From a virus: a stretch of DNA of 25,424 nt. The notes under the pieces are model-generated. The model was not told the origin of the DNA. It searched no databases and worked only from the letters and a program-made list of their open reading frames with translations. Below, one piece after another: positions 7,998 through 19,337 of the stretch. The translations under genes were made by a program, and so were the position numbers. The stretch's first letter is position 1; every line of letters starts with the position of its first letter. The stretch lies in IMG/VR virus record IMGVR_UViG_3300025698_000545, positions 1 to 25,424 of that record. One strand, given 5' to 3'.

Positions 7998-8933
7998 TTA
8001 GTATCCCCATGCCTGCCAGTAATATGCATGAGGAGCAGAACATTTATTTTTTATTTGCCCAATAGATAACAAAGCGCCTGTTTTTTGCCCCACCATCCAA
8101 GCTTCATTCATATGACCAGCATCCAAAACTGGTGTAGCACTCATCGAAATTATAGCATTTGGAAATGCAGTTCCATAAGTAACATCTAAAGTAGCATAAG
8201 CAGCGATAGAAGATGTCTTGCCATGTTTAAAAATTAAACCATTTGGAAATGTTATACTTTCTTCCGCGGCCTGTACAGTCGGATCGTAGAATAATCCTAT
8301 TCCCGCCGTGCCTCCGAACTGGGGGGCAGTGTTGTCTATCTTCACTACGCCATCAATGGAAACCTCAGCCCCGAAAGCCACGCCATCACCAAAGTCCACT
8401 GTTCCATCGAAAGATGCGTCGGCGAGAAATGCAACGTCACCGTTGAAATTCACCGTGCCGTCAGTTTCAATCTTACCAGCAATAGTCAGATCGCCTGTTA
8501 TGGCAACGTCCGAAAAATCCACACTAAAGTCGAACAGGTGCGCCCCGTCCCAAGTGAAATCAGCACCCTTACAGATACTCAATGGCCCGATCCTGACTAC
8601 AGTGATATCGGGAGAACCAGCCGATGCAGTTCCGGTCATGCAGTATAAGCTGGCATGACTGATACAATACATCATCGCACCCAAAGGCGCAGTAGTAGCA
8701 TCCACGTAAGCGGTAAAGTCCGCTGTATCGTCACAGACAAGCATTACCCCACACTTACCTGGGATATGCTCACCGCCTGCTGTGGTGTCGCCAAAAGCGA
8801 CGTGTTCTTTCTCAATTCGTTTTCGTACTGCTATCGCAAGATGATTAACATAGCGATAATCCAACCCATGAGGCTGGTCAATGTCAACATCTTCAGTCCA
8901 GCCTGTGCCGGTCCCATTGGGATGAACGCTCAC
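7998..8933 (-). CDS. Tail fibre protein with gp53-like C-terminus
   Basis: This 311-aa protein starts with GTG in a GTGA overlap with the cytidylyltransferase stop. Residues 1-100 are a globular N-terminal part that probably attaches to the tail. Residues about 130-200 contain short beta repeats of the VDFSDVAITGDLTIAGK / VNFNGDVAF / VDFGDGVAF / VSIDGVVKID kind, typical of trimeric fibre shafts. The last 90 residues end in YYWQAWGY and match the general shape of phage fibre gp53-like C-terminal domains, which fold as receptor-binding heads. DNA for this head (about 8001-8265) is clearly more AT-rich than the shaft (see findings), suggesting exchange of the tip. It directly follows the sugar cassette and could be a target of the modification. 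Confidence 0.8.
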   Translation of the reverse strand: MSVHPNGTGTGWTEDVDIDQPHGLDYRYVNHLAIAVRKRIEKEHVAFGDTTAGGEHIPGKCGVMLVCDDTADFTAYVDATTAPLGAMMYCISHASLYCMTGTASAGSPDITVVRIGPLSICKGADFTWDGAHLFDFSVDFSDVAITGDLTIAGKIETDGTVNFNGDVAFLADASFDGTVDFGDGVAFGAEVSIDGVVKIDNTAPQFGGTAGIGLFYDPTVQAAEESITFPNGLIFKHGKTSSIAAYATLDVTYGTAFPNAIISMSATPVLDAGHMNEAWMVGQKTGALLSIGQIKNKCSAPHAYYWQAWGY

Positions 8934-9559
8934 GCTTCATCTCTCTTTCCCCTTCTCATTATATCCGATATCTTTTTGAAGTCATCCATCGTATTGAGTG
9001 ATAAAGACTCTTCGTTCGGAGCCTTTGTCTTCATTGTCCTGCTGTGCCGTCGTATCCACGGCGTTACATGCTCCCTGTCGTACGCTGTGTAGGCTGATAT
9101 ATGCGCCTTATGCAAAACAGAGAGAGTAAACACTTCTACATCGAGACCGTCGCCCCTACCCATATCGCTGTCGTGATGGTTGTATGCGTAATCCACCATG
9201 CCGTTAGTAAAGAACTCTTCGAGAACGCCATCGACAATATCTGTTCGCATTAACGGACAGTCGGCGGTAATCCTTACTATCACATCCAGCTTATGCCTCT
9301 TGGCTGCGTGCCACAACTCCCCCAAAGGGTCGCGGGCTCCTTGCCAGCGATAAGACTGGTATCCCTTGACTTTACAAAACCTTACCAATTCATAGTCGGG
9401 CGTAGTTACAATGACAGCACCCAGTATCTCGGAGGCCATTAACGGCTTAACCACCCGCTCCAGAACGGTAACACCACTACCCTCCGGTATTTCAAGGAGC
9501 TGCTTGCGGGGTAGTCTTGTACTACCCAGTCTTGCCTGTACTATCGCTCCTGTTTTCAT
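8930..9559 (-). CDS. spsF: SpsF/NeuA-like CMP-sugar cytidylyltransferase
   Basis: This 209-aa protein is a clear member of the SpsF-type cytidylyltransferases, which load a keto-sugar acid onto CMP. The nucleotide-binding signature IVQARLGSTRLPRK is at residues 6-19. RITADCPLM (97-104) contains the metal-binding aspartate. GDGLDVEVF (137-145), DREHVTPWI (161-169) and the terminal LNTMDDFKKI (189-198) are all family landmarks. Typical members are 200-250 aa, so it is full length. Start ATG overlaps the previous stop in an ATGA. As the likely last biosynthetic step of the cassette it would make CMP-nonulosonate in the cytoplasm. Bacterial homologues occur in the B. subtilis sps operon and in flagellin glycosylation islands. 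The exact sugar acid cannot be read from the sequence. Confidence 0.9.
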   Translation of the reverse strand: MKTGAIVQARLGSTRLPRKQLLEIPEGSGVTVLERVVKPLMASEILGAVIVTTPDYELVRFCKVKGYQSYRWQGARDPLGELWHAAKRHKLDVIVRITADCPLMRTDIVDGVLEEFFTNGMVDYAYNHHDSDMGRGDGLDVEVFTLSVLHKAHISAYTAYDREHVTPWIRRHSRTMKTKAPNEESLSLNTMDDFKKISDIMRRGKRDEA

Positions 9560-10872
9560 TTGTTCCGCCTAAACCATCTCGCACCACACCACGGGCAGCA
9601 TGTATCATATTTAGGTATAACAGGTTTCGGTAAACCCATAAAATGACCCAACTGAGTCAACCATGAGTCGTTGACAATATAGAACGTTTCGTCGCAAACG
9701 GAACATTTCAACGGTGTTACTATCCTGTCATTGTCCCTTAGTATCGTAATCTGGGAGTAGTCCTTATAGCTTATTGGCCATGTTATCTTGAACTTGCCTT
9801 CTAGATTGTTTATCAGTTCAGCCGCCCGTTCGGTAGCCTTGCCGTCCATCAAACCGTATCGACCACATTCAAGATCGTGTATCGCATCAGGTGAAGCGTT
9901 CGTCCCGACATCACATCCCTTTATCATCTCAGCCAGTTTCTCAGGACTATCCGCCGAAGGTGAAACCTTTGATATGGGCGAATCCGACTTAGCCCACCAG
10001 TTGCCGAAAGCGTTCTGGTCACCATACTGGAGTGCAGGCTTGCCCAGGAAATGCGCCTCTATCGCTACAGTAGAGCCAGCGTGAACGATAATATCGCCAG
10101 CCACTATCAAATCAATGGCTCTGCAATCAGTATCTACTGGAATACCCTGTGGGACAAGAACTTGTTTGTATGGTTCCGGTGCTACGTTTGGATGCAGACT
10201 GACCAGTATATTGTATTCAGGTAGAGACTTCTTTAGAACGCTAATCATTTGAAGCCACTTGCCCCGGCCCTCGGCATCGCTGTTACACGAACCGTTTTCA
10301 TCTATCTGGAGGTCAGGGGCGCTATCCATAAAGCCCCACGCCGACATAACTACTACTGTTTTCTTGTCCTTGTCCAACCCAAACTTGTCATACGTAGCAG
10401 CTTTAGACGTCAGCGTATCAAGAATATCGGGCCGCTTGTATGCGTCGGCAACAAACGCACCAACAGACACAGTCTTGAATGTTACCTTGCGCTTATTGAG
10501 AATATCCGCCTCATCAGGACCCCACACCAACTCAACGTCCACATTGTATCCGTATCGGCCTGTAATTTCATACTGCTTGTTGGGGTCCATAGCCTTGAAG
10601 TCAGACCAGTCGCAACTTGGCTCAGTGTGCCTTGTAGCCACTCCGCAACCCCACGCCTTCAACTGTTCAGCGAAGTCGCGGGAGTATACGTTCCGCACAG
10701 GGGGAAGAACTACTACATCAGGCTCAAGTTCCAACACCTTCTGCCTTCCCTCTCTGAGACATGGTGCAACCCATGTTTCGTTGCCCATAGCCTTGAGTTT
10801 ATCGGCCAGCATTTCGTCAATAAGTTTGTCTCTTTGTGGTGACGCTGTCAGAATTAGGATTTTTTTAGCCAT
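9556..10872 (-). CDS. GT-B-type surface carbohydrate protein with C-terminal zinc ribbon
   Basis: This 438-aa protein starts MAKKILILTASPQRDK, a Rossmann-like beginning, and has a second half with LVSLHPNVAPEP, DLIVAGDIIVHAGSTVAIEAHFLGKPAL (about 255-283) and a later Glu/Lys region, the pattern seen in GT-B fold surface-carbohydrate and CDP-glycerol transferase-type proteins. The last 50 residues add four cysteines as CSVC (390-393) and CCPWC (425-429), a probable zinc ribbon that such enzymes do not normally carry. Roles to consider are a transferase that uses the CMP-nonulosonate made by the neighbours, or a PseG-like UDP-sugar hydrolase that frees the sugar before condensation; the sequence does not decide. 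Start has AAAGGA five bases upstream and overlaps the FemAB-like gene by 8 bases; its stop overlaps the SpsF start (ATGA). Confidence 0.75.
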   Translation of the reverse strand: MAKKILILTASPQRDKLIDEMLADKLKAMGNETWVAPCLREGRQKVLELEPDVVVLPPVRNVYSRDFAEQLKAWGCGVATRHTEPSCDWSDFKAMDPNKQYEITGRYGYNVDVELVWGPDEADILNKRKVTFKTVSVGAFVADAYKRPDILDTLTSKAATYDKFGLDKDKKTVVVMSAWGFMDSAPDLQIDENGSCNSDAEGRGKWLQMISVLKKSLPEYNILVSLHPNVAPEPYKQVLVPQGIPVDTDCRAIDLIVAGDIIVHAGSTVAIEAHFLGKPALQYGDQNAFGNWWAKSDSPISKVSPSADSPEKLAEMIKGCDVGTNASPDAIHDLECGRYGLMDGKATERAAELINNLEGKFKITWPISYKDYSQITILRDNDRIVTPLKCSVCDETFYIVNDSWLTQLGHFMGLPKPVIPKYDTCCPWCGARWFRRNK

Positions 10873-11656
10873 TCGTTTCCTTTGTGAGTATTAGTCTTGC
10901 GTGCGTGGAGCCACCAAAGCCCCTCTTAAAGTACGATATACTGTCATCGTATTTCTGTTCGCCCATCTCAAACATTCGGCAGCCAAGCCTTTTAGCTTCA
11001 AGGATCGCCGCCCATATCAGATGATGGGTGTTTGCGTTGTCTCTCGATACGGCACTGGCGTAGTACGCCGAATACTTATTGTGATATACCATAACAGCCA
11101 TATCGTCATCGTAGACAACAAAACCCTGTCCTTGCCGACACATCTTGTTTTGTATCTTCCAGCTTTCTACTGGACGGGAACGGGTATCCTTCACCCTGTT
11201 CCTCATCTCGTAAACGTGATAGGCATTATGCGTAAACCTTGGGTTACCCTTTGTCACAAGCGACTTATAGCTCTTTCTTAACCCGCCCTTCAATGCTTCA
11301 ATACTCTGCGTCAGGTCTATTATCTGTGTTAAATACGGGGTAGCTTTATACCCAAGTTTCAATAGGACCAAACTGGCATCACTCAGTTCTCCCCCTTCAA
11401 GAAAGTCCATATACGTCACATCGCCTCTGGATGCAAGAGCTATCATCTTAGCCCTAACAAGAATTGGATTGCCAGCACTTACTACTGGCCGCCAGAAGCC
11501 GGTTATCTCGCCGCCTTTTAGCCCGGCAACCACTTCGCAGTCATGCGAACGTACACTCAAGTCCCTATATGGACCACTCATGCTTTGTGCATACTCAACG
11601 TCAAGTGGGCTATAAAGAGCTGTATACTTTTCTATCAAATGAGAAGTAGAGTCCAT
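10865..11656 (-). CDS. FemAB-like / GNAT-superfamily transferase
   Basis: From ATG 11656-11654 the protein is 263 aa; longer versions have no better start, and a later ATG at 11578 has no ribosome binding site. The C-terminal half carries the FemAB pattern: LKGGLRKSYKSLVTKG (122-137), HHLIWAAILEAKRLGCRMFEMG (211-232) and ISYFKRGFGGS (240-250), the last being the typical FK.GFG end of FemAB/lipid II glycyltransferase-like proteins. Known relatives move aminoacyl or acyl groups onto peptidoglycan or polysaccharide precursors. Here it probably adds an acyl or aminoacyl group to an amino sugar made by the aminotransferase next door, or to a protein acceptor; both are inference. It overlaps the GNAT gene by 47 bases, so the two differ in reading frame but share DNA. 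Confidence 0.75.
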   Translation of the reverse strand: MDSTSHLIEKYTALYSPLDVEYAQSMSGPYRDLSVRSHDCEVVAGLKGGEITGFWRPVVSAGNPILVRAKMIALASRGDVTYMDFLEGGELSDASLVLLKLGYKATPYLTQIIDLTQSIEALKGGLRKSYKSLVTKGNPRFTHNAYHVYEMRNRVKDTRSRPVESWKIQNKMCRQGQGFVVYDDDMAVMVYHNKYSAYYASAVSRDNANTHHLIWAAILEAKRLGCRMFEMGEQKYDDSISYFKRGFGGSTHARLILTKETNG

Positions 11657-12116
11657 CGTAGTATTGCCCGTCCCAGAATTTTCGTTTCGGCAGATTAACC
11701 ATATATCCATTAAACCGCTCAACCATAGTCCGCCAGAACCCGACCGCCGGATTACACATGTAACACTCGCCACACACCGTCTGGAGATTCAACCGGCCAA
11801 ACCCTTCCCGCAACAGCAACCGAATAGCCCGTTCACCAATGCCGTTGCCCTCTTCCTTGGGGGCTACTCTCAAACTGATCTCTGCTATCCGGTTTTCCCA
11901 CTGGATGTATGTCAGTCCACAAGTAGCTACGTGCCTACTGCCGTCATACACTGCGTAGTAACGATGCTGAGAGTTTCTGTTATTGATAACGTCCCGAAGG
12001 AACTCTTCCTGCATATCCTCGGTCAGCATATAGGGCGTGCGTAGAGACGGCATGGAGCTATTGCGCCATAGTCGCGTTCGCATACAATCGTTATGGTTTA
12101 CTTCCTGTAACTTCAT
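11610..12116 (-). CDS. GNAT N-acetyltransferase, PseH/SpsD-like
   Basis: The 168-aa protein is a full-length GNAT. Strand IAEISLRVAPKEEGNGIGERAIRLLL (78-102) contains the acetyl-CoA pyrophosphate-binding loop (EEGNGIGE), and LNLQTVCGECYMCNPAVGFWRTM (109-131) is the usual beta5-alpha4 end with the N..A..FW pattern. PseH and SpsD are GNATs of about this length that acetylate a 4-amino group of the sugar nucleotide. Position directly after the aminotransferase (ATGA overlap) makes the transaminated sugar the likely substrate. Acetylation of a protein is possible but less likely in this context. Confidence 0.85.
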   Translation of the reverse strand: MKLQEVNHNDCMRTRLWRNSSMPSLRTPYMLTEDMQEEFLRDVINNRNSQHRYYAVYDGSRHVATCGLTYIQWENRIAEISLRVAPKEEGNGIGERAIRLLLREGFGRLNLQTVCGECYMCNPAVGFWRTMVERFNGYMVNLPKRKFWDGQYYDGLYFSFDRKVYSSL

Positions 12117-13360
12117 TTTACAGAAATCATCCTGTGTGTAGCCTGCGCCACCTCGCCCTGAAGTCCCTTCTCAGGATCGTCCCAATACTTCCTTACTATA
12201 TATATGCCCTTCTTTATCGCCTCGAACGCCTGGTCCATTTCTATCTGGCCGTGAGAGTAATTGGTGAACTGGGCATATCCGAAAAACACTTTTGTTCTTA
12301 ACGCTGCCTGCCAGAACAGTGACTTATGAGCCTCGGTCGGGAAGTTGAAGAACGTCCGACACGGCAATCCTATACACTCGACGCCGTCAAGGCCATCAGC
12401 CGCCGACCGGAACACCTCCGTTAGCCGAGTACCCGCATTCCAAATGTTCTTTACTACCGGCTCAGTCGTTAGTACCTCTAACACGGCTAACGCAGCAGCT
12501 ATCCCCAATAATTCCCCGCCAAACGTGGAAGATACAAAGCAATCATCCTTCAGGACACTCATTATGTCTTTGCGTCCGCAAACAGCACCTACCGCTATAC
12601 CATTGCCCAGCGCCTTGCCGATAGTACACATGTCAGGCGTAATACCATAATGCTTCTGTGCCGAGAGGCCGGGAGTCCTGAATCCCGTTATCACCTCGTC
12701 AAAGATGAGTAATGTGTTGTACCTGTCGCATAGAGTCTTTACCTTCTCAAGAAAATTGTCCTCCGGCTCAGCCAGAATATACGGCTCCATTATCACGGCG
12801 GCACAGGTTTTCCTGTTGGCTATCAGTAACTTCTTGAACGCTTCGTAGTCGTTGTACTTGAATTGTATCACGGACGGCATCATCCCCTTAGTCGGTAGAA
12901 CACCAGCGTGCCTCGGCGTAGTCAGATTGTACCAGTCGTGCCAGCCATGATAGCCGCAACACAGAATAGTGTTTCTCTTCGTATATGCCCTTGCTATCCT
13001 CACCGCCGCCGTATCGGCCTCACTGCCTGTTTTAACGAACCTCGTCATCTCAGCACAAGGGATTAAGTCCCTCAGCTTTTGTGCCAGTAGTGTCTCAGAT
13101 GGGTGCGGCAGGCTAAACAGTGTTCCCTGTAACAACTGATCCTTAACGGCCTGCACCACAGATGGGTAGGCATGGCCAAGAAGGTTAGCGCCAAGCGAGC
13201 ATGGGAAATCAACGTATTCCTCCCCGTTCTCGTCCGTCACCCACGCGCCATGACCACTTACAATGTATTTCGGATAAACCCCTTCAACATGTCTGTTGGG
13301 CATCTTGCTTTCAGTTTGTACGCCATTAGGGATTACTTCTAATGTGTCATTCCATTCCAT
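12113..13360 (-). CDS. Class-III PLP aminotransferase (glutamate-1-semialdehyde aminomutase-like)
   Basis: This 415-aa protein has the full class-III fold. TGSEA (111-115) binds the PLP phosphate, YHGWHDW (137-143) stacks on the ring, IFDEVITGFR (219-228) carries the aspartate for the pyridine nitrogen, and IGKALGNG (247-254) has the Schiff-base lysine K249. The nearest known family is glutamate-1-semialdehyde aminomutase-like proteins found in surface-sugar clusters together with SpsF and NeuB homologues. PseC and LegC belong to another aminotransferase class, so either this enzyme replaces them or it aminates a different position. The ATG has AAGGA eight bases upstream and overlaps the reductase gene by 14 bases. 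Haem biosynthesis is unlikely given the neighbours. Confidence 0.88.
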   Translation of the reverse strand: MEWNDTLEVIPNGVQTESKMPNRHVEGVYPKYIVSGHGAWVTDENGEEYVDFPCSLGANLLGHAYPSVVQAVKDQLLQGTLFSLPHPSETLLAQKLRDLIPCAEMTRFVKTGSEADTAAVRIARAYTKRNTILCCGYHGWHDWYNLTTPRHAGVLPTKGMMPSVIQFKYNDYEAFKKLLIANRKTCAAVIMEPYILAEPEDNFLEKVKTLCDRYNTLLIFDEVITGFRTPGLSAQKHYGITPDMCTIGKALGNGIAVGAVCGRKDIMSVLKDDCFVSSTFGGELLGIAAALAVLEVLTTEPVVKNIWNAGTRLTEVFRSAADGLDGVECIGLPCRTFFNFPTEAHKSLFWQAALRTKVFFGYAQFTNYSHGQIEMDQAFEAIKKGIYIVRKYWDDPEKGLQGEVAQATHRMISVK

Positions 13361-13970
13361 TTTTTGCGTCCTTCCATTTGCGAGGGTCTAAAAGGTTTAT
13401 GTCGTCCTTGCCAGCCTTTTCCATTGCAACGAACGGGGCAAGGGTAAATGCAAGCATATCTTGTGATTCAGTACCAACCACTGCTATATCCACGTTCGGG
13501 TTCATCAACACGAAACTCAGACAGGCAAAGGCGTTCCAGTCTTCAATTATCCTGCCCTTCAGAAAGATAGACCTGGCCATGATAGTATCGCCGTGCAACA
13601 TCGTTTTCTCGAACCGCCTGTCCCACAAACTGTACGGCACTTGAAGAACCCCATAATGAGTTTTTACTTCTGGTTCGTACAGAGATACCCCCACATGTTC
13701 GGCCCCAGTCGACTTGGCAGTCCCTATCTCACCATCATGGGCAAGCACCGCCCATACGCCCGGCCTGGGTTTCTGGCCCGGATATACTTTGGTAATTACC
13801 TTGAAGTCTTTAACGTAGGGCGAGTAATCCCATTCATACGATTCCGCCGTGTCAATATACTGAACACCTACATACTTGGCGTACTCCAGTATCTTTTCCG
13901 GGTCATCGACCTTAACGCCGTTGTACTTCTTGCCGAAGTTGGCGGTTCCTATGGCTATTCGTTCAAGCAT
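13347..13970 (-). CDS. Compact aldo/keto reductase
   Basis: I chose ATG 13970-13968 (207 aa) because GAAGGAAG lies just before it; a longer frame has no such site. The aldo/keto reductase tetrad is visible: D40 and Y45 in IDTAESY, K61 in ITKV, H78 in LAHDG. GVSLYEP (94-100), VLQVPYSLWDRRF (108-120), ARSIFLKGR (132-140) and LSFVLMNPNVDIAVVGTES (151-169) follow in family order. Family members are usually 280-330 aa; this one is about a quarter shorter, with loops reduced between H78 and GVSLY. All catalytic residues remain, so it may be active. Similar reductases accompany SpsF and NeuB in bacterial surface-sugar clusters. It probably reduces a keto intermediate of the sugar; the step is not known. 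It overlaps both neighbours (16 and 14 bases). Confidence 0.83.
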   Translation of the reverse strand: MLERIAIGTANFGKKYNGVKVDDPEKILEYAKYVGVQYIDTAESYEWDYSPYVKDFKVITKVYPGQKPRPGVWAVLAHDGEIGTAKSTGAEHVGVSLYEPEVKTHYGVLQVPYSLWDRRFEKTMLHGDTIMARSIFLKGRIIEDWNAFACLSFVLMNPNVDIAVVGTESQDMLAFTLAPFVAMEKAGKDDINLLDPRKWKDAKNGME

Positions 13971-14806
13971 AGCTTCCTTCTCAATTCTTCTTTTGTCATC
14001 CACCATTCGTTCGTGTTACTGTCGTATCCATCAGATAAGGATTCGTGCAGCTTCTCTCCTGGCCGGATACCTGTTATCTTAAATGTGCAGTTCGGGCTAA
14101 TAGTCCTTGCCACATCAGTTATTTTCATCGACGGAATATCGGGGATGTGCACCTGTGGTTTGTCACTCTCAATCGCCGTTAGGACAAGGTTACATGCCTC
14201 TTCCAGTGTTATCCAGAACCGCGTCATTCGCTCGTCGGTAATAGGGAACTCTGTAACACCTTCGTCTTTCAGTTTAATGAATGTTTCAATCACAGAACCA
14301 CGAGAAGCCAGAACATTGCCATACCGAACAACAGAAAAAATAGTCTCATTATAAGCGTTGGCCGCAAGAAACAACTTCTCGCCGGATAGCTTGGTTGAAC
14401 CGTAAAGATTCACAGGCGCAACGGCCTTGTCAGTAGATATTAAGACCGCCTTTTTCACACTACTGGCAAGACAAGCCTCGACAACATTCATAGTGCCGAT
14501 AACATTGGTCTTTATCGCTTCCGTAGGATTGTACTCTACTTTCGGAATATGCTTTAACGCAGCAGCATGAATAACAACGTCAACTCCACTGAATACTTGC
14601 TTGATCCTATCGGTATCACGGACATCGCCTAATATAAACCGAAGACAGTCTATACCGGAAAACTTCGCCGCCATGTGGTGTTGTTTGTTTTCGTCCCGAC
14701 TCACTATGATAATCTTTTTCGGCTTGACGGCGGCCAGTACAGGGACAAGAGCATTCCCCAGCGATCCAGTACCCCCGGTTATACATATTACACTATCTTT
14801 GAGCAT
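13955..14806 (-). CDS. pseB: PseB-like UDP-N-acetylglucosamine 4,6-dehydratase (extended SDR)
   Basis: The protein is 283 aa from ATG 14806-14804, which has AAGGA six bases upstream; an ATG two codons earlier is too close to that site. GGTGSLG (11-17) binds the nucleotide. VSRDENKQHHM (35-45) and FILGDVRD (57-64) match PseB/FlaA1. STDKAVAPVNLYGSTK (124-139) holds the catalytic residues D126, K127 and Y135, with the same D-K-x8-Y spacing as in PseB. FSVVRYGNVLASRGSV (157-172), PITDERMTRFWIT (188-200) and RPGEKLHE (248-255) complete the match. PseB converts UDP-GlcNAc to the 4-keto-6-deoxy-L-arabino sugar, the first step of the pseudaminic acid pathway. At 283 aa it is shorter than typical PseB (about 330). 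A CapD/FnlA-like dehydratase acting in a related pathway is possible. Confidence 0.9.
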   Translation of the reverse strand: MLKDSVICITGGTGSLGNALVPVLAAVKPKKIIIVSRDENKQHHMAAKFSGIDCLRFILGDVRDTDRIKQVFSGVDVVIHAAALKHIPKVEYNPTEAIKTNVIGTMNVVEACLASSVKKAVLISTDKAVAPVNLYGSTKLSGEKLFLAANAYNETIFSVVRYGNVLASRGSVIETFIKLKDEGVTEFPITDERMTRFWITLEEACNLVLTAIESDKPQVHIPDIPSMKITDVARTISPNCTFKITGIRPGEKLHESLSDGYDSNTNEWWMTKEELRRKLCLNE

Positions 14807-14857
14807 TGTCATTCCTTTTCGTAACCATCTAATTCAACCCACTTACCAACCCATCGC

Positions 14858-15067
14858 TTAATAACAATAAATGTATGCTGTCGGCAGTCGTACTCTTATG
14901 CACTCTTTTGGCATCTGGTCCCTTGTTAAGTCACATCCAGTCTTCGTCCAGTGACTCGTTCCGTCGCCGTGCGATTCAGCACAATCCCGGCAGCAGACGG
15001 GAACTTCCGTTTTAACAGGACAGTCAAGATCGCACTTGTAGTCAGACACTCCTGAGCCACCTCCCAT
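14858..15067 (-). CDS. Small Cys-rich, probably zinc-binding protein
   Basis: The 69-aa protein starts at an ATG with AGGAAG seven bases upstream and overlaps the synthase end by 26 bases. Its N-terminal half has six cysteines as C..DC..VCC.DC (about residues 12-30), a histidine near 33, and further cysteines at about 45, 55 and 68. This is a metal-binding, zinc-finger-like arrangement rather than an enzyme. The stop is followed by a 51-base gap, the largest in the cassette. I do not recognise the family; small proteins with a DCP...CC..C pattern occur in phages but are not characterised. A regulator, a metallochaperone or a partner of the truncated synthase are possible. Confidence 0.6.
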   Translation of the reverse strand: MGGGSGVSDYKCDLDCPVKTEVPVCCRDCAESHGDGTSHWTKTGCDLTRDQMPKECIRVRLPTAYIYCY

Positions 15068-15887
15068 TCACTTGCTTCCTGCGATACTGAGAAGGACCAC
15101 CGTAAGTCGTGGAGCCAAGGGAAATTTGAGTCGCCCTTATCGTCCTCACCATTGTATCGAACCTATCGGGAGTAATGGAGAACCCGGCGTCAACGCCCTG
15201 TTCGCTATCGAGGGTAATATGCTTTTCAATAACTCTCGCACCTAATACGCAGGCGGCTACCGGGGCAACACAACCAAGAGAATGATCACTTAACCCTATC
15301 GGACACCTGAACCTTTTACGCATATCAAGAATGGTGTGCAGGTTCATACTCTCCAGGGATGCGGGATAACTCGACGTGCATTTGAGTAAGGCCACCTTGT
15401 CGTGCTTGTTCCGCACTAATTGCAGCGCGTGCTCAACTTCGTCAAGTGCCCCGCCCCCTGTAGAGATTATTACGGGCTTACCTGTATTAGCTACAGTCTC
15501 GATTAACTTGTCAAAGAGCAATTCATAGGACGCTATCTTGTACGTCCTGATTCCTATCTGCTCGGCGAACTCAACCATTTCAGGATAGTATACACTGGCG
15601 ATAAAGCCAAGGCCAAGGCCGTCGGCAATGTTCTTCAGTTTAACCACCCAGTCGAGCGGCATAGCAGCTTTTTCGTACAATTCATGTAAAGTTTGGCCCT
15701 TCCAAGGACCATCTTGTATTTGTCCGTCGTTATTATCTGCCATGCCGTCCGGTTCATACATCTGAACCTTCACCGAATCGGCTCCGACCTTATGAGCGAC
15801 ATACACTAACGCAGCCGCCCGCTGGTACGATTGCAAATGGTTGGCCCCAATCTCTGCTACGATATGGCAGCCTTTATTCCACGGCAT
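15042..15887 (-). CDS. neuB: NeuB/PseI-type nonulosonic acid synthase lacking SAF domain
   Basis: From ATG 15887-15885 (281 aa, GGCGG-type site upstream) the protein has the NeuB TIM barrel. HIVAEIGANH (8-17), SVKVQMYEPD (38-47), the TLHELYEKAAMPLDW segment (67-81) and YKIASYELLFDKLIE (115-129) come first, then GKPVIISTGG (134-143), LLKCTSSYPAS (164-174), IGLSDHSLG (195-203) and VIEKHITLD (215-223). The KIASxE and LLKCTSxYPA forms are closest to PseI. The family condenses PEP with a 6-carbon amino sugar to give a 9-carbon nonulosonate. It ends just after YRRK, where full-length synthases (about 340-350 aa) begin the C-terminal SAF/antifreeze-like domain, which is absent. It overlaps the adaptor gene by 14 bases and so is translated with virion genes. 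Sialic, legionaminic and pseudaminic products cannot be told apart with certainty. Confidence 0.9.
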   Translation of the reverse strand: MPWNKGCHIVAEIGANHLQSYQRAAALVYVAHKVGADSVKVQMYEPDGMADNNDGQIQDGPWKGQTLHELYEKAAMPLDWVVKLKNIADGLGLGFIASVYYPEMVEFAEQIGIRTYKIASYELLFDKLIETVANTGKPVIISTGGGALDEVEHALQLVRNKHDKVALLKCTSSYPASLESMNLHTILDMRKRFRCPIGLSDHSLGCVAPVAACVLGARVIEKHITLDSEQGVDAGFSITPDRFDTMVRTIRATQISLGSTTYGGPSQYRRKQVNGRWLRSV

Positions 15888-16557
15888 CCTCGTACATACC
15901 GCCGCCCCATGCGTCGATACGGTCGTTCGCGCCCCTAAATTCGTCGAGCCAGTCATTATACTTACCTTCCCATATTTTTGCTTTTACTTCATCGCCGATA
16001 GCACCCCACGCCTGTGCAACTGCATAGAGTATCAACCCCTGATCCGCCCCCGATATGTCCGACGGAGATGTGGTATTCGTCGTTAAATCTTCAGCGTAGA
16101 AATCTCCGTCAAGTCGAATATCTGCGTCACAATACGCCGTCGCACACAATGGGATCATCTCAATGGCATTACCCCGCCGCGTCCACCGCTGGGGGATACC
16201 TACCGGAACATCAGAATGAGTCGGGTCCGGGAACTCCTCGTCCCACACATCAATATGTGTATACTTCAATGGGACAGATTCGTTGCCGTCGAGGTATGTC
16301 ACATTAAATATGTGGCATGGTGATTGCGTAGTCGCGTCCCCGACAGTCCAATCGGTAAGAGCATACGACAGCACTACGGTAGTATCCACACTGGTAGTAT
16401 TTTTGAATACCATGTTATGAATACCGGGCACTTTCTCAACTACCTCTTTCTGCGCCTCGTTAAGCCATCGCGTACATCTCGTATCGTCGCACAAAGCCGT
16501 ATCGCCCGTTCGACCTACAAGAGCCTGCACTTCATCAACTAATTCTGCACCTGTCAT
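15874..16557 (-). CDS. Head-tail adaptor (P22 gp4 / tail tubular A-like)
   Basis: The 227-aa protein starts with ATG after AAAGGATAAAAAT. Its N-terminus MTGAELVDEVQALVGRTGD and RCTRWLNEAQKEVVEKVPG (27-45) is the usual opening of podoviral adaptors that bind the portal. A beta-rich middle follows (VLSYALTDWTVGD, VPLKYTHIDVWDEEFPD) with the WTRRGNAIEMIP strand pair (124-135), then a C-terminal helix (DQGLILYAVAQAWGAIGDEVKAKIWE and on) that should pack against the portal. It seals the head and begins the tail. It lies just upstream of the sugar cassette and overlaps the synthase by 14 bases. Confidence 0.8.
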   Translation of the reverse strand: MTGAELVDEVQALVGRTGDTALCDDTRCTRWLNEAQKEVVEKVPGIHNMVFKNTTSVDTTVVLSYALTDWTVGDATTQSPCHIFNVTYLDGNESVPLKYTHIDVWDEEFPDPTHSDVPVGIPQRWTRRGNAIEMIPLCATAYCDADIRLDGDFYAEDLTTNTTSPSDISGADQGLILYAVAQAWGAIGDEVKAKIWEGKYNDWLDEFRGANDRIDAWGGGMYEDAVE

Positions 16558-16620: not shown

Positions 16621-16890
16621 TTACCATCCAGCTATAATATAGACACCCGGCCCTGTAGTGGAATCACCCAAGGTGAAGTCCACTGTGCCATTGGTATTGG
16701 TATTACCGACAACTGGCCTGCCCGCGGCGTTATCGTGCCCGAATATCAGGCCGCCTACAACATAAGACAAAGTCGTTGGAATAGCCTGACTCAGAGCCGC
16801 TGTGCCGCTCCAGCAGCCAGCCTCCAATCGCAAGCCGGGAATACTACCAGACATTTGCCGGATATCATTTGTCACATCTGCAAATCCCAT
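16621..16890 (-). CDS. Small virion-type protein, paralogue C
   Basis: I chose ATG 16890-16888 (89 aa) because GGGAG lies seven bases upstream; an earlier TTG would overlap the neighbouring gene without a good site. It shares a core with the two genes upstream: AIPTTLSYVVGG in the middle and a TVDFTLG...YIIAGW end, which align with SIPTTLKHVAAGW / IDFTMDATCAG...LVFGW and GIPTNLTSIVGGF / IDFTMDVTCAG...LVFGY. It is beta-rich with no membrane segment. Position after the major capsid protein suggests a head decoration or minor capsid protein. I do not recognise the family. Confidence 0.65.
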   Translation of the reverse strand: MGFADVTNDIRQMSGSIPGLRLEAGCWSGTAALSQAIPTTLSYVVGGLIFGHDNAAGRPVVGNTNTNGTVDFTLGDSTTGPGVYIIAGW

Positions 16891-16900
16891 AGTCAACTCC

Positions 16901-17227
16901 CTAATATCCAAAAACTAACCAGTTGTTCACACCGGCACAGGTTACATCCATTGTGAAATCAATGTACCCGCGTCCGAACGTATGGTCGGCCAGTTCTTGC
17001 GTAGTTATACAACCCATGTTTATCGGGTCCCCACCGACCGCACCAGCCGTAGATATGCACATACAAAAGCCACCTACAATGCTTGTCAGGTTAGTGGGTA
17101 TCCCATGGGAAGCTGAACAGCCCGCCGTCTCATCGGTAAGATAAGATGCGTCAGCCACGCCAACTTCAATACGCATACCATGAGCGGATGCCGACTGCTG
17201 TTTGTTTATGTCCCAGCCACTTGCCAT
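16901..17227 (-). CDS. Small virion-type protein, paralogue B
   Basis: This 108-aa beta-rich protein has AAAGGAGTGGATT before its ATG. HGIPTNLTSIVGG (about 41-53) and YIDFTMDVTCAGVNNWLVFGY (last 21 residues) match paralogue A closely, and the N-terminal HGMRIEVGVADASYLTDE matches GHLKMEVGYIGPDDVTTV of paralogue A. The three genes are in a row with short gaps (10 and 11 bases), so they look like tandem duplications that have diverged. A decoration role is inferred from position. Confidence 0.68.
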   Translation of the reverse strand: MASGWDINKQQSASAHGMRIEVGVADASYLTDETAGCSASHGIPTNLTSIVGGFCMCISTAGAVGGDPINMGCITTQELADHTFGRGYIDFTMDVTCAGVNNWLVFGY

Positions 17228-17238
17228 AATCCACTCCT

Positions 17239-17586
17239 TTACCAGCCAAATACCAAATAGAAATTACCACCGCCAGTCCCGGCACAAGTCGCATCCATCG
17301 TAAAGTCGATGTGCGGCTGAAGACCGAGTAAGGCGTCACGAGTAGTATCACCAGTCGAAATCTCGACCGGACCAGCAGCAGTTATGCAACCTACAGTGCC
17401 GCCACTTGTACTTGAGCAGACCATCCAGCCAGCGGCAACGTGCTTGAGTGTAGTGGGTATCGAATGCGATTCGCTCGCATCATCACCATACACAGTCGTA
17501 ACGTCGTCCGGCCCTATATAGCCTACCTCCATCTTGAGGTGTCCTACATAGCCGGTATATTGGGTATCAATGTTAATACCAGCCAT
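17239..17586 (-). CDS. Small virion-type protein, paralogue A
   Basis: This 115-aa protein starts MAGINID after AGAAAGGA. HSIPTTLKHVAAG (about 41-53) and HIDFTMDATCAG...FYLVFGW (end) define the paralogue family shared with 16901-17227 and 16621-16890. It contains several Cys residues and Gly/Ser/Thr-rich loops (VCSSTSGGTVGC), compatible with a small beta-sandwich exposed on the capsid. It may be a decoration protein; no family is recognised. Confidence 0.68.
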   Translation of the reverse strand: MAGINIDTQYTGYVGHLKMEVGYIGPDDVTTVYGDDASESHSIPTTLKHVAAGWMVCSSTSGGTVGCITAAGPVEISTGDTTRDALLGLQPHIDFTMDATCAGTGGGNFYLVFGW

Positions 17587-18299: not shown

Positions 18300-19337
18300 C
18301 TAACTTACGTTACTTAGCCACATAGACGAGTTCGGCTTCCAGCATACAAGATTGCCAGCCCACATAATTCGGGACAGCCACATGTCGTAGCCGTTGGAAT
18401 TCTCGGCCTGCCACTTGAACGGAGTCATATTAAAGTTTCTTGCTGTGTGGATTCTCATTTCCCAATACCTCATATTGAGAATGAATACCCACGTCTTCAT
18501 TGTTGACGTTGTTTGCAGGTACGGAACGCTCGTAATAGTATGGCCGTCGAGAACCATCTTTGTGAGCTTCTGACTGGCTGTACCATTAACCGGGGCCGGA
18601 TAACCTACAGTTCTGGCCTCCATCTGAGCCCTTAGCTTGTTGTATAGCGTGGGGCACATGCAAATGTACAGATCGTTGGCAGTCTTCATGTTGTGAGCAA
18701 TAGAAGACTCTGAAATCCACTTCCGCAAATTCGCAACGGTAAGGTTAGTAGCCGTTCCCTGCGAACTCGATGTAACAGACTCGTTCAGACCAGCCGGGTC
18801 TGCACCCTGCCACGAGTCGTTCGTACCGCCGCTAAACGACCTCGTTCGCGTACCATAGGTAACATCATGGTCGAGTGCGGACACAAGAGACTGAAAACCA
18901 GTTGCACCATCAGCAACGCCAGTGGTGCTACCGGAATTAAATATCTTCTTGCAAAGATACCTGCGGACACCATCGTGACCCTTTTCAGTCAGGTGTGAAA
19001 CGAGATCGAGAAGTTGCTCTTCGTCGCCCGCTGTAGCATTTTGCAGATATTCGTCCACGTCATACCGCAGTGGCATAGTCGCCATCTTCCATGTAAACCG
19101 TGGCTTTTGGAGCGATGTGGACTTCTGATCCACCAGCGGCATACCAACCACGTACTCCTGAACCAAATCCTCAGTAGTGCCATTGTCCGTTAGTCGTTCA
19201 ATGTACGTTCCGCCCTTATACGATACCTGCCTTCGTCTTTGCAACTCTTCAACTACAGGAGTCGCCATGTATACTTCGTCCACCAGTGAACGTATGAATA
19301 GTTCACGAGTGGCTTTCGTTAAATCAGATGTACTCAT
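18300..19337 (-). CDS. Major capsid protein (HK97-fold type)
   Basis: The 345-aa protein starts MSTSDLTKATRELFIRSLVDEVYMATPVVEELQ (residues 1-33) after an AAAGGAG site. The order scaffold, this gene, decoration genes is the standard head order. An N-terminal helix is followed by a central LVDQKSTSLQKPRFTWKMATMPLRYDVDEYLQN region (68-100) and a C-terminal part with repeated strands (KTWVFILNMRYWEMRIHTAR, MWLSRIMWAGNLVCWKPN), consistent with the E-loop, P-domain and A-domain of HK97-fold coat proteins. About 345 aa fits. It has no N-terminal delta domain, because a separate scaffold gene is present. Confidence 0.85.
   Translation of the reverse strand: MSTSDLTKATRELFIRSLVDEVYMATPVVEELQRRRQVSYKGGTYIERLTDNGTTEDLVQEYVVGMPLVDQKSTSLQKPRFTWKMATMPLRYDVDEYLQNATAGDEEQLLDLVSHLTEKGHDGVRRYLCKKIFNSGSTTGVADGATGFQSLVSALDHDVTYGTRTRSFSGGTNDSWQGADPAGLNESVTSSSQGTATNLTVANLRKWISESSIAHNMKTANDLYICMCPTLYNKLRAQMEARTVGYPAPVNGTASQKLTKMVLDGHTITSVPYLQTTSTMKTWVFILNMRYWEMRIHTARNFNMTPFKWQAENSNGYDMWLSRIMWAGNLVCWKPNSSMWLSNVS

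Follow-up and report, generated by a model that had tools for sequence, protein, structure and literature searches.

A conserved nonulosonate-type gene cassette in the structural operon of a phage lineage known from metagenomes

Why would a phage set a run of sugar-making genes between its head and tail genes? The question is posed by IMGVR_UViG_3300025698_000545, a phage contig whose complete virus record (25,424 bases) is the window analysed here. Nine co-directional genes, running from 15887 to 8930 on the minus strand and mostly overlapping or abutting their neighbours, encode enzymes of the kinds that make nonulosonates, the sialic-acid-like sugars. A sequence-only reading had placed nonulosonate-type enzymes in nine genes at 8930-15887, within the late structural operon of a phage. 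All nine are indeed there. Profile matches identify PseB-, PseI-, and SpsF-type enzymes among them, and the flanking genes are phage structural ones: terminase large subunit, portal, major head protein, virion structural protein, and tail fibre protein. The linked genes keep their order and position across relatives, purifying selection acts on them, and they have been inherited with the capsid genes. What they do can be put at even chances: they would form a core glycosylation cassette, with a shortened nonulosonate pathway and a transferase of its own, that would decorate the virion late in infection.

The wider lineage was collected through an IMG/VR scan with the aminotransferase profile, which retrieved further phages at 45-58% identity. 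Open reading frame (ORF) and profile searches identified the same core order in 12 distinct phages: NeuB, PseB, AKR (aldo/keto reductase), AT (aminotransferase), GNAT, FemAB, GTB (the GT-B-fold protein), and SpsF. The module proteins of these phages are about 35-65% identical. The slot is constant too, always after the connector gene and, wherever the contig extends that far, before the tail gene. Two of the 12 (3300037245_000544 and 3300022539_000112) do not have the reductase but show an unchanged order of the other core genes, and parts of the array appear on further fragments. Among the lineage contigs retrieved with the capsid profile, none that extends well beyond the connector lacks a synthase. 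Recurrence of one gene order in 12 distinct phages excludes chance, and answers in the affirmative the earlier question whether the set travels together in phages.

How old is the association? Mean pairwise identity is 62% for the capsid and 52% for the portal; for the synthase, dehydratase, aminotransferase, and GT-B protein it is 48%, 58%, 56%, and 50%, respectively. A module tree (seven module proteins) and a structural tree (capsid, portal, and connector) have six of eight splits in common, a number that none of 5000 label shuffles reached (maximum 4, mean 0.34), and the single-gene trees reveal no well-supported conflict. For close pairs, the module gives finite ratios of nonsynonymous to synonymous substitution (dN/dS) of 0.04-0.20, similar to those of capsid and portal; the tail-fibre-like gene evolves faster. 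The phages cluster apart from the sampled bacterial sequences in both the aminotransferase and the synthase tree, with at most one stray long branch. Purifying selection, together with a phylogeny shared with the capsid and portal genes, makes the cassette an old core locus. Recent pick-up of host genes is ruled out by the common order and congruent trees of 12 divergent phages.

Which enzymes are encoded? All of the genes lie on the minus strand. The first specifies a PseI/NeuB-type nonulosonate synthase (15042..15887; the ORF is open from 15956, and ATG 15887 is the likely start), which scores E 2e-81 and 274 bits against the PseI model TIGR03586 (cut-off 340) and 3e-70 against Pfam NeuB. 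The structural model of this protein resembles C. jejuni PseI (8h2c; TM 0.81 over the query), and residues K63, K140, H225, E244, H246, and D256, the metal-site motifs included, are conserved in nine of nine synthases. The PseB-type UDP-GlcNAc 4,6-dehydratase (13955..14812), of the short-chain dehydrogenase/reductase (SDR) type, contains motifs STDK and YGSTK; the catalytic motif is present in all nine members examined. This protein reaches E 3e-107 and 358 bits against the PseB model TIGR03589, under the cut-off of 407.75, and is nearest to PseB structure 2gn4. There follow a short aldo/keto-reductase-like protein (13347..14006; Aldo_ket_red 2e-7); a class-III, glutamate-1-semialdehyde-aminomutase-like aminotransferase (12113..13360; Aminotran_3 1e-55) with the pyridoxal phosphate (PLP)-lysine motif TIGKALGNG; a GNAT acetyltransferase with weak PseH similarity (11610..12116; GNAT 9e-10); and a FemAB-like acyl/aminoacyl transferase (10865..11656; FemAB model 7e-7), whose ORF is open from 11773 and whose relatives align from the Met at 11656. 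Next comes a GT-B-fold, BFO_1060/TagB-like glycosyltransferase with a C-terminal four-Cys ribbon (9556..10872), the proposed nonulosonate transferase. An SpsF-type cytidylyltransferase (8930..9559; CTP_transf_3 2e-18) completes the run; against the PseF model it scores 15 bits (cut-off 205.7).

The remaining gene, between those for synthase and dehydratase, encodes a small Cys-rich protein (14858..15067; start at ATG 15067 or GTG 15049). Relatives adjoin the synthase in at least eight other lineage members. The gene is frameshifted with respect to them: their longer, conserved C-terminal half lies here in the +1 frame, and the shift is identical in contigs L002 and L003. It may represent decay, a programmed shift, or a variant.

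Family membership suggests a route. The PseB-type enzyme would convert UDP-GlcNAc to UDP-4-keto-6-deoxy-HexNAc; the class-III aminotransferase and the GNAT, perhaps with the FemAB-like protein, would aminate and acylate the sugar; the phosphoenolpyruvate-dependent PseI/NeuB-type synthase would extend it to a nine-carbon nonulosonate; and the SpsF-type enzyme would yield the CMP-sugar. Removal of UDP before the synthase step would fall to the host, to the GT-B protein, or to a route without a name. Judging from genomic context, the GT-B protein would then transfer the nonulosonate to a virion protein from the neighbouring genes, and particles would leave decorated. Co-direction and overlap point to late expression alongside the structural genes.

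Is this a near-complete Pse or Sps pathway, as had been claimed? It resembles the Pse pathway, yet is not a member, and is neither standard Pse nor standard Sps. The aminotransferase is of class III in place of DegT, no hydrolase is identifiable, and the synthase has no recognisable SAF domain. With controls positive, DegT aminotransferase (PF01041) was absent from the 12 lineage contigs and from the unrelated phage contig L104 (below); homologues of SpsC (DegT) and SpsG (hydrolase) were not found in the lineage contigs. The synthase sequence stops right after the barrel, and two members retain just a 54-residue tail; in bacterial relatives from clusters with PseB, the synthase C-terminus is of SAF length. 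The statement that motifs are intact in each enzyme thus stands for the synthase barrel and fails for the SAF domain, which is found in no relative, and for the frameshifted Cys-rich gene.

Several observations weigh against a nonulosonate cassette of the proposed kind. Every family score falls under its curated equivalog cut-off. In searches with positive controls, the PseG hydrolase model TIGR03590 had no real match in the 12 lineage contigs and L104, and the UDP-GlcNAc 2-epimerase family (NeuC type) was not found in the 12 lineage contigs; all of these contigs are fragments. SAF (PF08666) was absent from all 16 contigs searched, again with positive controls, and was not found as a separate gene either. 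The SAF residue Arg314 of NeuB is thought to help bind substrate, and R314 mutants are deposited in the PDB. The rank correlation of distances with those of the structural genes, high for most module genes, is near zero for AKR and GT-B. Finally, structural matches of the GT-B protein are equally good to UDP-GlcNAc 2-epimerases and to the teichoic acid polymerase TagF.

Where would the sugar go? The GT-B protein matches glycosyltransferase models BFO_1060 and TIGR04396 in 10 of 10 members (for the window protein against BFO_1060, E 6e-22 and 78 bits, cut-off 200). The NCBIfam model BFO_1060 is named for a T. forsythia locus tag, which may be that of the transferase GtfS. Portal and capsid mark out ten distinct sister contigs (L153, L156, L158, L160, L176, L182, L199, L200, L204, and L209), which carry a GT-B relative in the capsid-connector interval without NeuB, PseB, AT, or SpsF. 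These relatives are 27-29% identical to the window protein where aligned; two other sister contigs (L179 and L202) are without the gene. In some sisters GT-B is the sole inserted gene; in L153, L154, L160, and L196 it is accompanied by methyltransferase-type and radical-SAM-type proteins. In the sister phages, an enzyme that attaches some other sugar to an adjacent virion protein would make sense. A glycosyltransferase gene within or beside the structural genes, conserved in the lineage, is one feature expected of phage-encoded virion glycosylation, and is what is found here. At a guess, attractive acceptors are three small (96-115 aa) repeated proteins of the virion region (16621..17586, minus strand), since such proteins lie between capsid and connector in both cassette and sister phages. 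They are encoded in tandem and look alike, and similar ones recur in relatives and sister phages.

In phages with another capsid type, a GT-B protein follows a capsid-like gene (L152:9995-11375 and L155:9541-12650). In L155 the next protein resembles, by eye, N-acetyl-sugar amidotransferases (no Pfam match), and a radical-SAM-like start comes after it.

The nonulosonate might instead end up, late in infection, on the surface of the host cell, for superinfection exclusion or receptor masking. In bacteria the usual destination of nonulosonates is flagellin, S-layer, capsule, or lipopolysaccharide: the B. subtilis legionaminic acid (Leg) is on the spore crust (PMC7439481), and T. forsythia places its own on S-layer glycans (PMC6388019). 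However, every member has the cassette in the interval from head to tail genes, and sisters keep GT-B alone amid the capsid, small virion proteins, and connector. Furthermore, no integrase was found in 16 contigs, and a search of the module ORFs, which was not exhaustive, turned up no gene for a flippase, a polymerase, or a Gtr-type protein. We regard the host surface as an unlikely destination; the sister-phage comparison favours the virion.

Is the product a nonulosonate at all? SpsF, an oxidoreductase, the class-III aminotransferase, and a short NeuB-like synthase might make another keto-deoxy acid, the canonical steps having been misassigned. The presence of a class-III aminotransferase in place of DegT is one reason to entertain this. 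Bacteria provide others: Bacteroidota and Ignavibacteria clusters pair the same aminotransferase family with SpsF, short NeuB-like synthases (~295 aa), and transketolase-like genes, without PseB, and the bacterial clusters L078 and L059 have this aminotransferase besides a DegT one. So does a third viral clade, with its fusion of SpsF and aminotransferase. However, the phage synthase fits best with PseI by score and by structure, and a PseB-type dehydratase is always present, so that a different acid seems doubtful.

L104 (3300029597_000002), a phage contig with Terminase_6, a PF04860 portal, and an S78 protease, carries AKR-SpsF-AT-GNAT-NeuB-PseB between terminase and portal (L104:1751-7046), the NeuB with a SAF-length tail. 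The same six enzyme types therefore occupy the packaging/structural operon of a second, unrelated phage, which independently supports the view that the pathway forms a unit. The third viral clade (L105-L113) encodes SpsF-type cytidylyltransferase and class-III aminotransferase in one ORF (for example, L108:9197-11194), with PseB and NeuB (SAF-length tail) mostly nearby. Several nonulosonate-like pathways, all poorly known, thus include the aminotransferase/SpsF pair.

Other combinations were noted in passing. Phage contig L005 (15786-17727) contains, by eye, phosphoenolpyruvate (PEP) mutase, phosphonopyruvate decarboxylase, and alcohol dehydrogenase beside PseB, SpsF, and aminotransferase, a possible set for a phage-made phosphonate glycan. 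A PIG-L type de-N-acetylase is inserted in one phage's cassette, in the GNAT-FemAB interval (L090:12398-12967), and PIG-L-type genes lie near the synthase in bacterial clusters L048 and L078 too.

The predicted structure of the window GT-B protein (mean pLDDT 80) has the GT-B fold, which alone is indecisive because the nearest solved structures are UDP-GlcNAc 2-epimerases and TagF; a PDB sequence search with the GT-B and FemAB profiles gave no match. That this protein is the missing UDP-sugar hydrolase, with PseG or NeuC function, in a phage that makes only CMP-nonulosonate for host transferases to use, is quite improbable: UDP-GlcNAc 2-epimerases, NeuC 5xvs among them, are its best Foldseek matches in the PDB, and the lineage contigs hold no other hydrolase candidate, but it matches no PseG, NeuC, or Epimerase_2 profile, it belongs with a glycosyltransferase family in all members, and it is better read as a transferase because sisters without the pathway keep it, where a hydrolase would have no substrate. 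The description of GT-B as PseG-like is accordingly disfavoured. DNA hypermodification by the glycosyltransferase was considered as well; nothing supporting it was seen, in analyses of which none was aimed at it.

We return, then, to a phage-made nonulosonate on the particles. In its specific form this reading, which we hold tentatively and at somewhat less than even chances, joins a shortened pathway (class-III aminotransferase, SAF-less synthase, no PseG) to an ancestral virion-operon transferase; relatives would retain the transferase while replacing or losing the genes that make the sugar.

The surroundings of the cassette are those of a phage. The window is apparently a fragment of a larger genome, because relatives span 45-52 kb. 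Its evident genes are all on the minus strand: terminase large subunit, portal, major head protein, small virion-region proteins, connector-like protein, cassette, tail-fibre-like protein, large virion protein, and internal virion proteins. The major capsid protein is encoded at 18300..19337. Upstream, the cassette borders a head-tail connector/adaptor-like structural protein (15874..16557; weak PHROG head match), a border kept in relatives; downstream it borders a tail-fibre-like protein (7998..8933). A Pfam search of the Cys-rich and small repeated virion proteins returned zero matches, and a promoter scan was uninformative, the number of sites not exceeding that in shuffles. Three additional contigs 99.96-100% identical to the window rule out a single chimeric assembly. 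A decayed prophage in a bacterial chromosome is also ruled out: from end to end the window is a virus record, in which terminase, portal, capsid, and tail genes are present, and the module is under purifying selection.

Among INPHARED isolates, neither the capsid nor the GT-B protein has a match; the synthase has three distant ones, and the terminase matches isolates at 31% at best. The open literature searched reports no phage-encoded nonulosonate pathway. These bacterial viruses, known only from metagenomes, would coat themselves with a sugar of their own making. If so, a whole phage lineage has long inherited sialylated particles, and one could test whether the sugars on phage surfaces help in adsorption, in evading the defences of hosts or protists, or in keeping the particle stable. 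The minimal SAF-less synthases and compact transferase are possible tools for sialic-acid analogues, and the class-III aminotransferase/SpsF pair, present in viruses and bacteria that are unrelated, suggests a branch of nonulosonate chemistry yet to be characterised.

How does the cassette compare with known systems? Like the Pse pathway of Helicobacter and Campylobacter (PseB-C-H-G-I-F), it has a dehydratase resembling PseB (2gn4), a synthase resembling PseI (8h2c), a GNAT, and a cytidylyltransferase. Unlike that pathway, it is without DegT PseC and PseG, its cytidylyltransferase is SpsF-type rather than PseF, its synthase is without SAF, it adds AKR, FemAB-like, GT-B, and Cys-rich proteins, and it is encoded in a virion operon. 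With the B. subtilis sps (CMP-legionaminic acid) pathway it shares an SpsF-type cytidylyltransferase, a NeuB/SpsE-type synthase, and a GNAT, whereas the DegT SpsC and the hydrolase SpsG are absent and a class-III aminotransferase is present instead. The sps operon also includes a TagB-like GT-B protein, SpsB (PMC7439481).

T. forsythia GtfS, described as combining glycosyltransferase with sialyltransferase motifs, has been shown to transfer a pseudaminic acid (Pse) derivative (PMC6388019, PMC6120980), and both T. forsythia transferases contain a TagB domain (PMC7439481). The likeness to GtfS-type enzymes lies in a TagB-like glycosyltransferase of ~440 aa beside a CMP-nonulosonate cluster; the phage proteins differ in scoring under the BFO_1060 model cut-off and in their C-terminal four-Cys ribbon.

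A prokaryotic virus particle bearing a nonulosonate has a precedent: the archaeal virus HRPV-1, in whose virion N-glycan Kandiba et al. 2012 (cited in PMC10866085) reportedly described legionaminic acid. That glycan is host-made, and HRPV-1, unlike the phage lineage, is an archaeal pleomorphic virus. Mycobacteriophage virions carry glycans, according to Freeman et al. 2023 as cited in PMC12619734. In the cassette phages the sugar would be phage-made and a nonulosonate, and hosts and phages are unrelated to those of the mycobacteriophages. A conserved nonulosonate pathway in a virion operon would thus represent a new form of phage virion glycosylation with a putative target.

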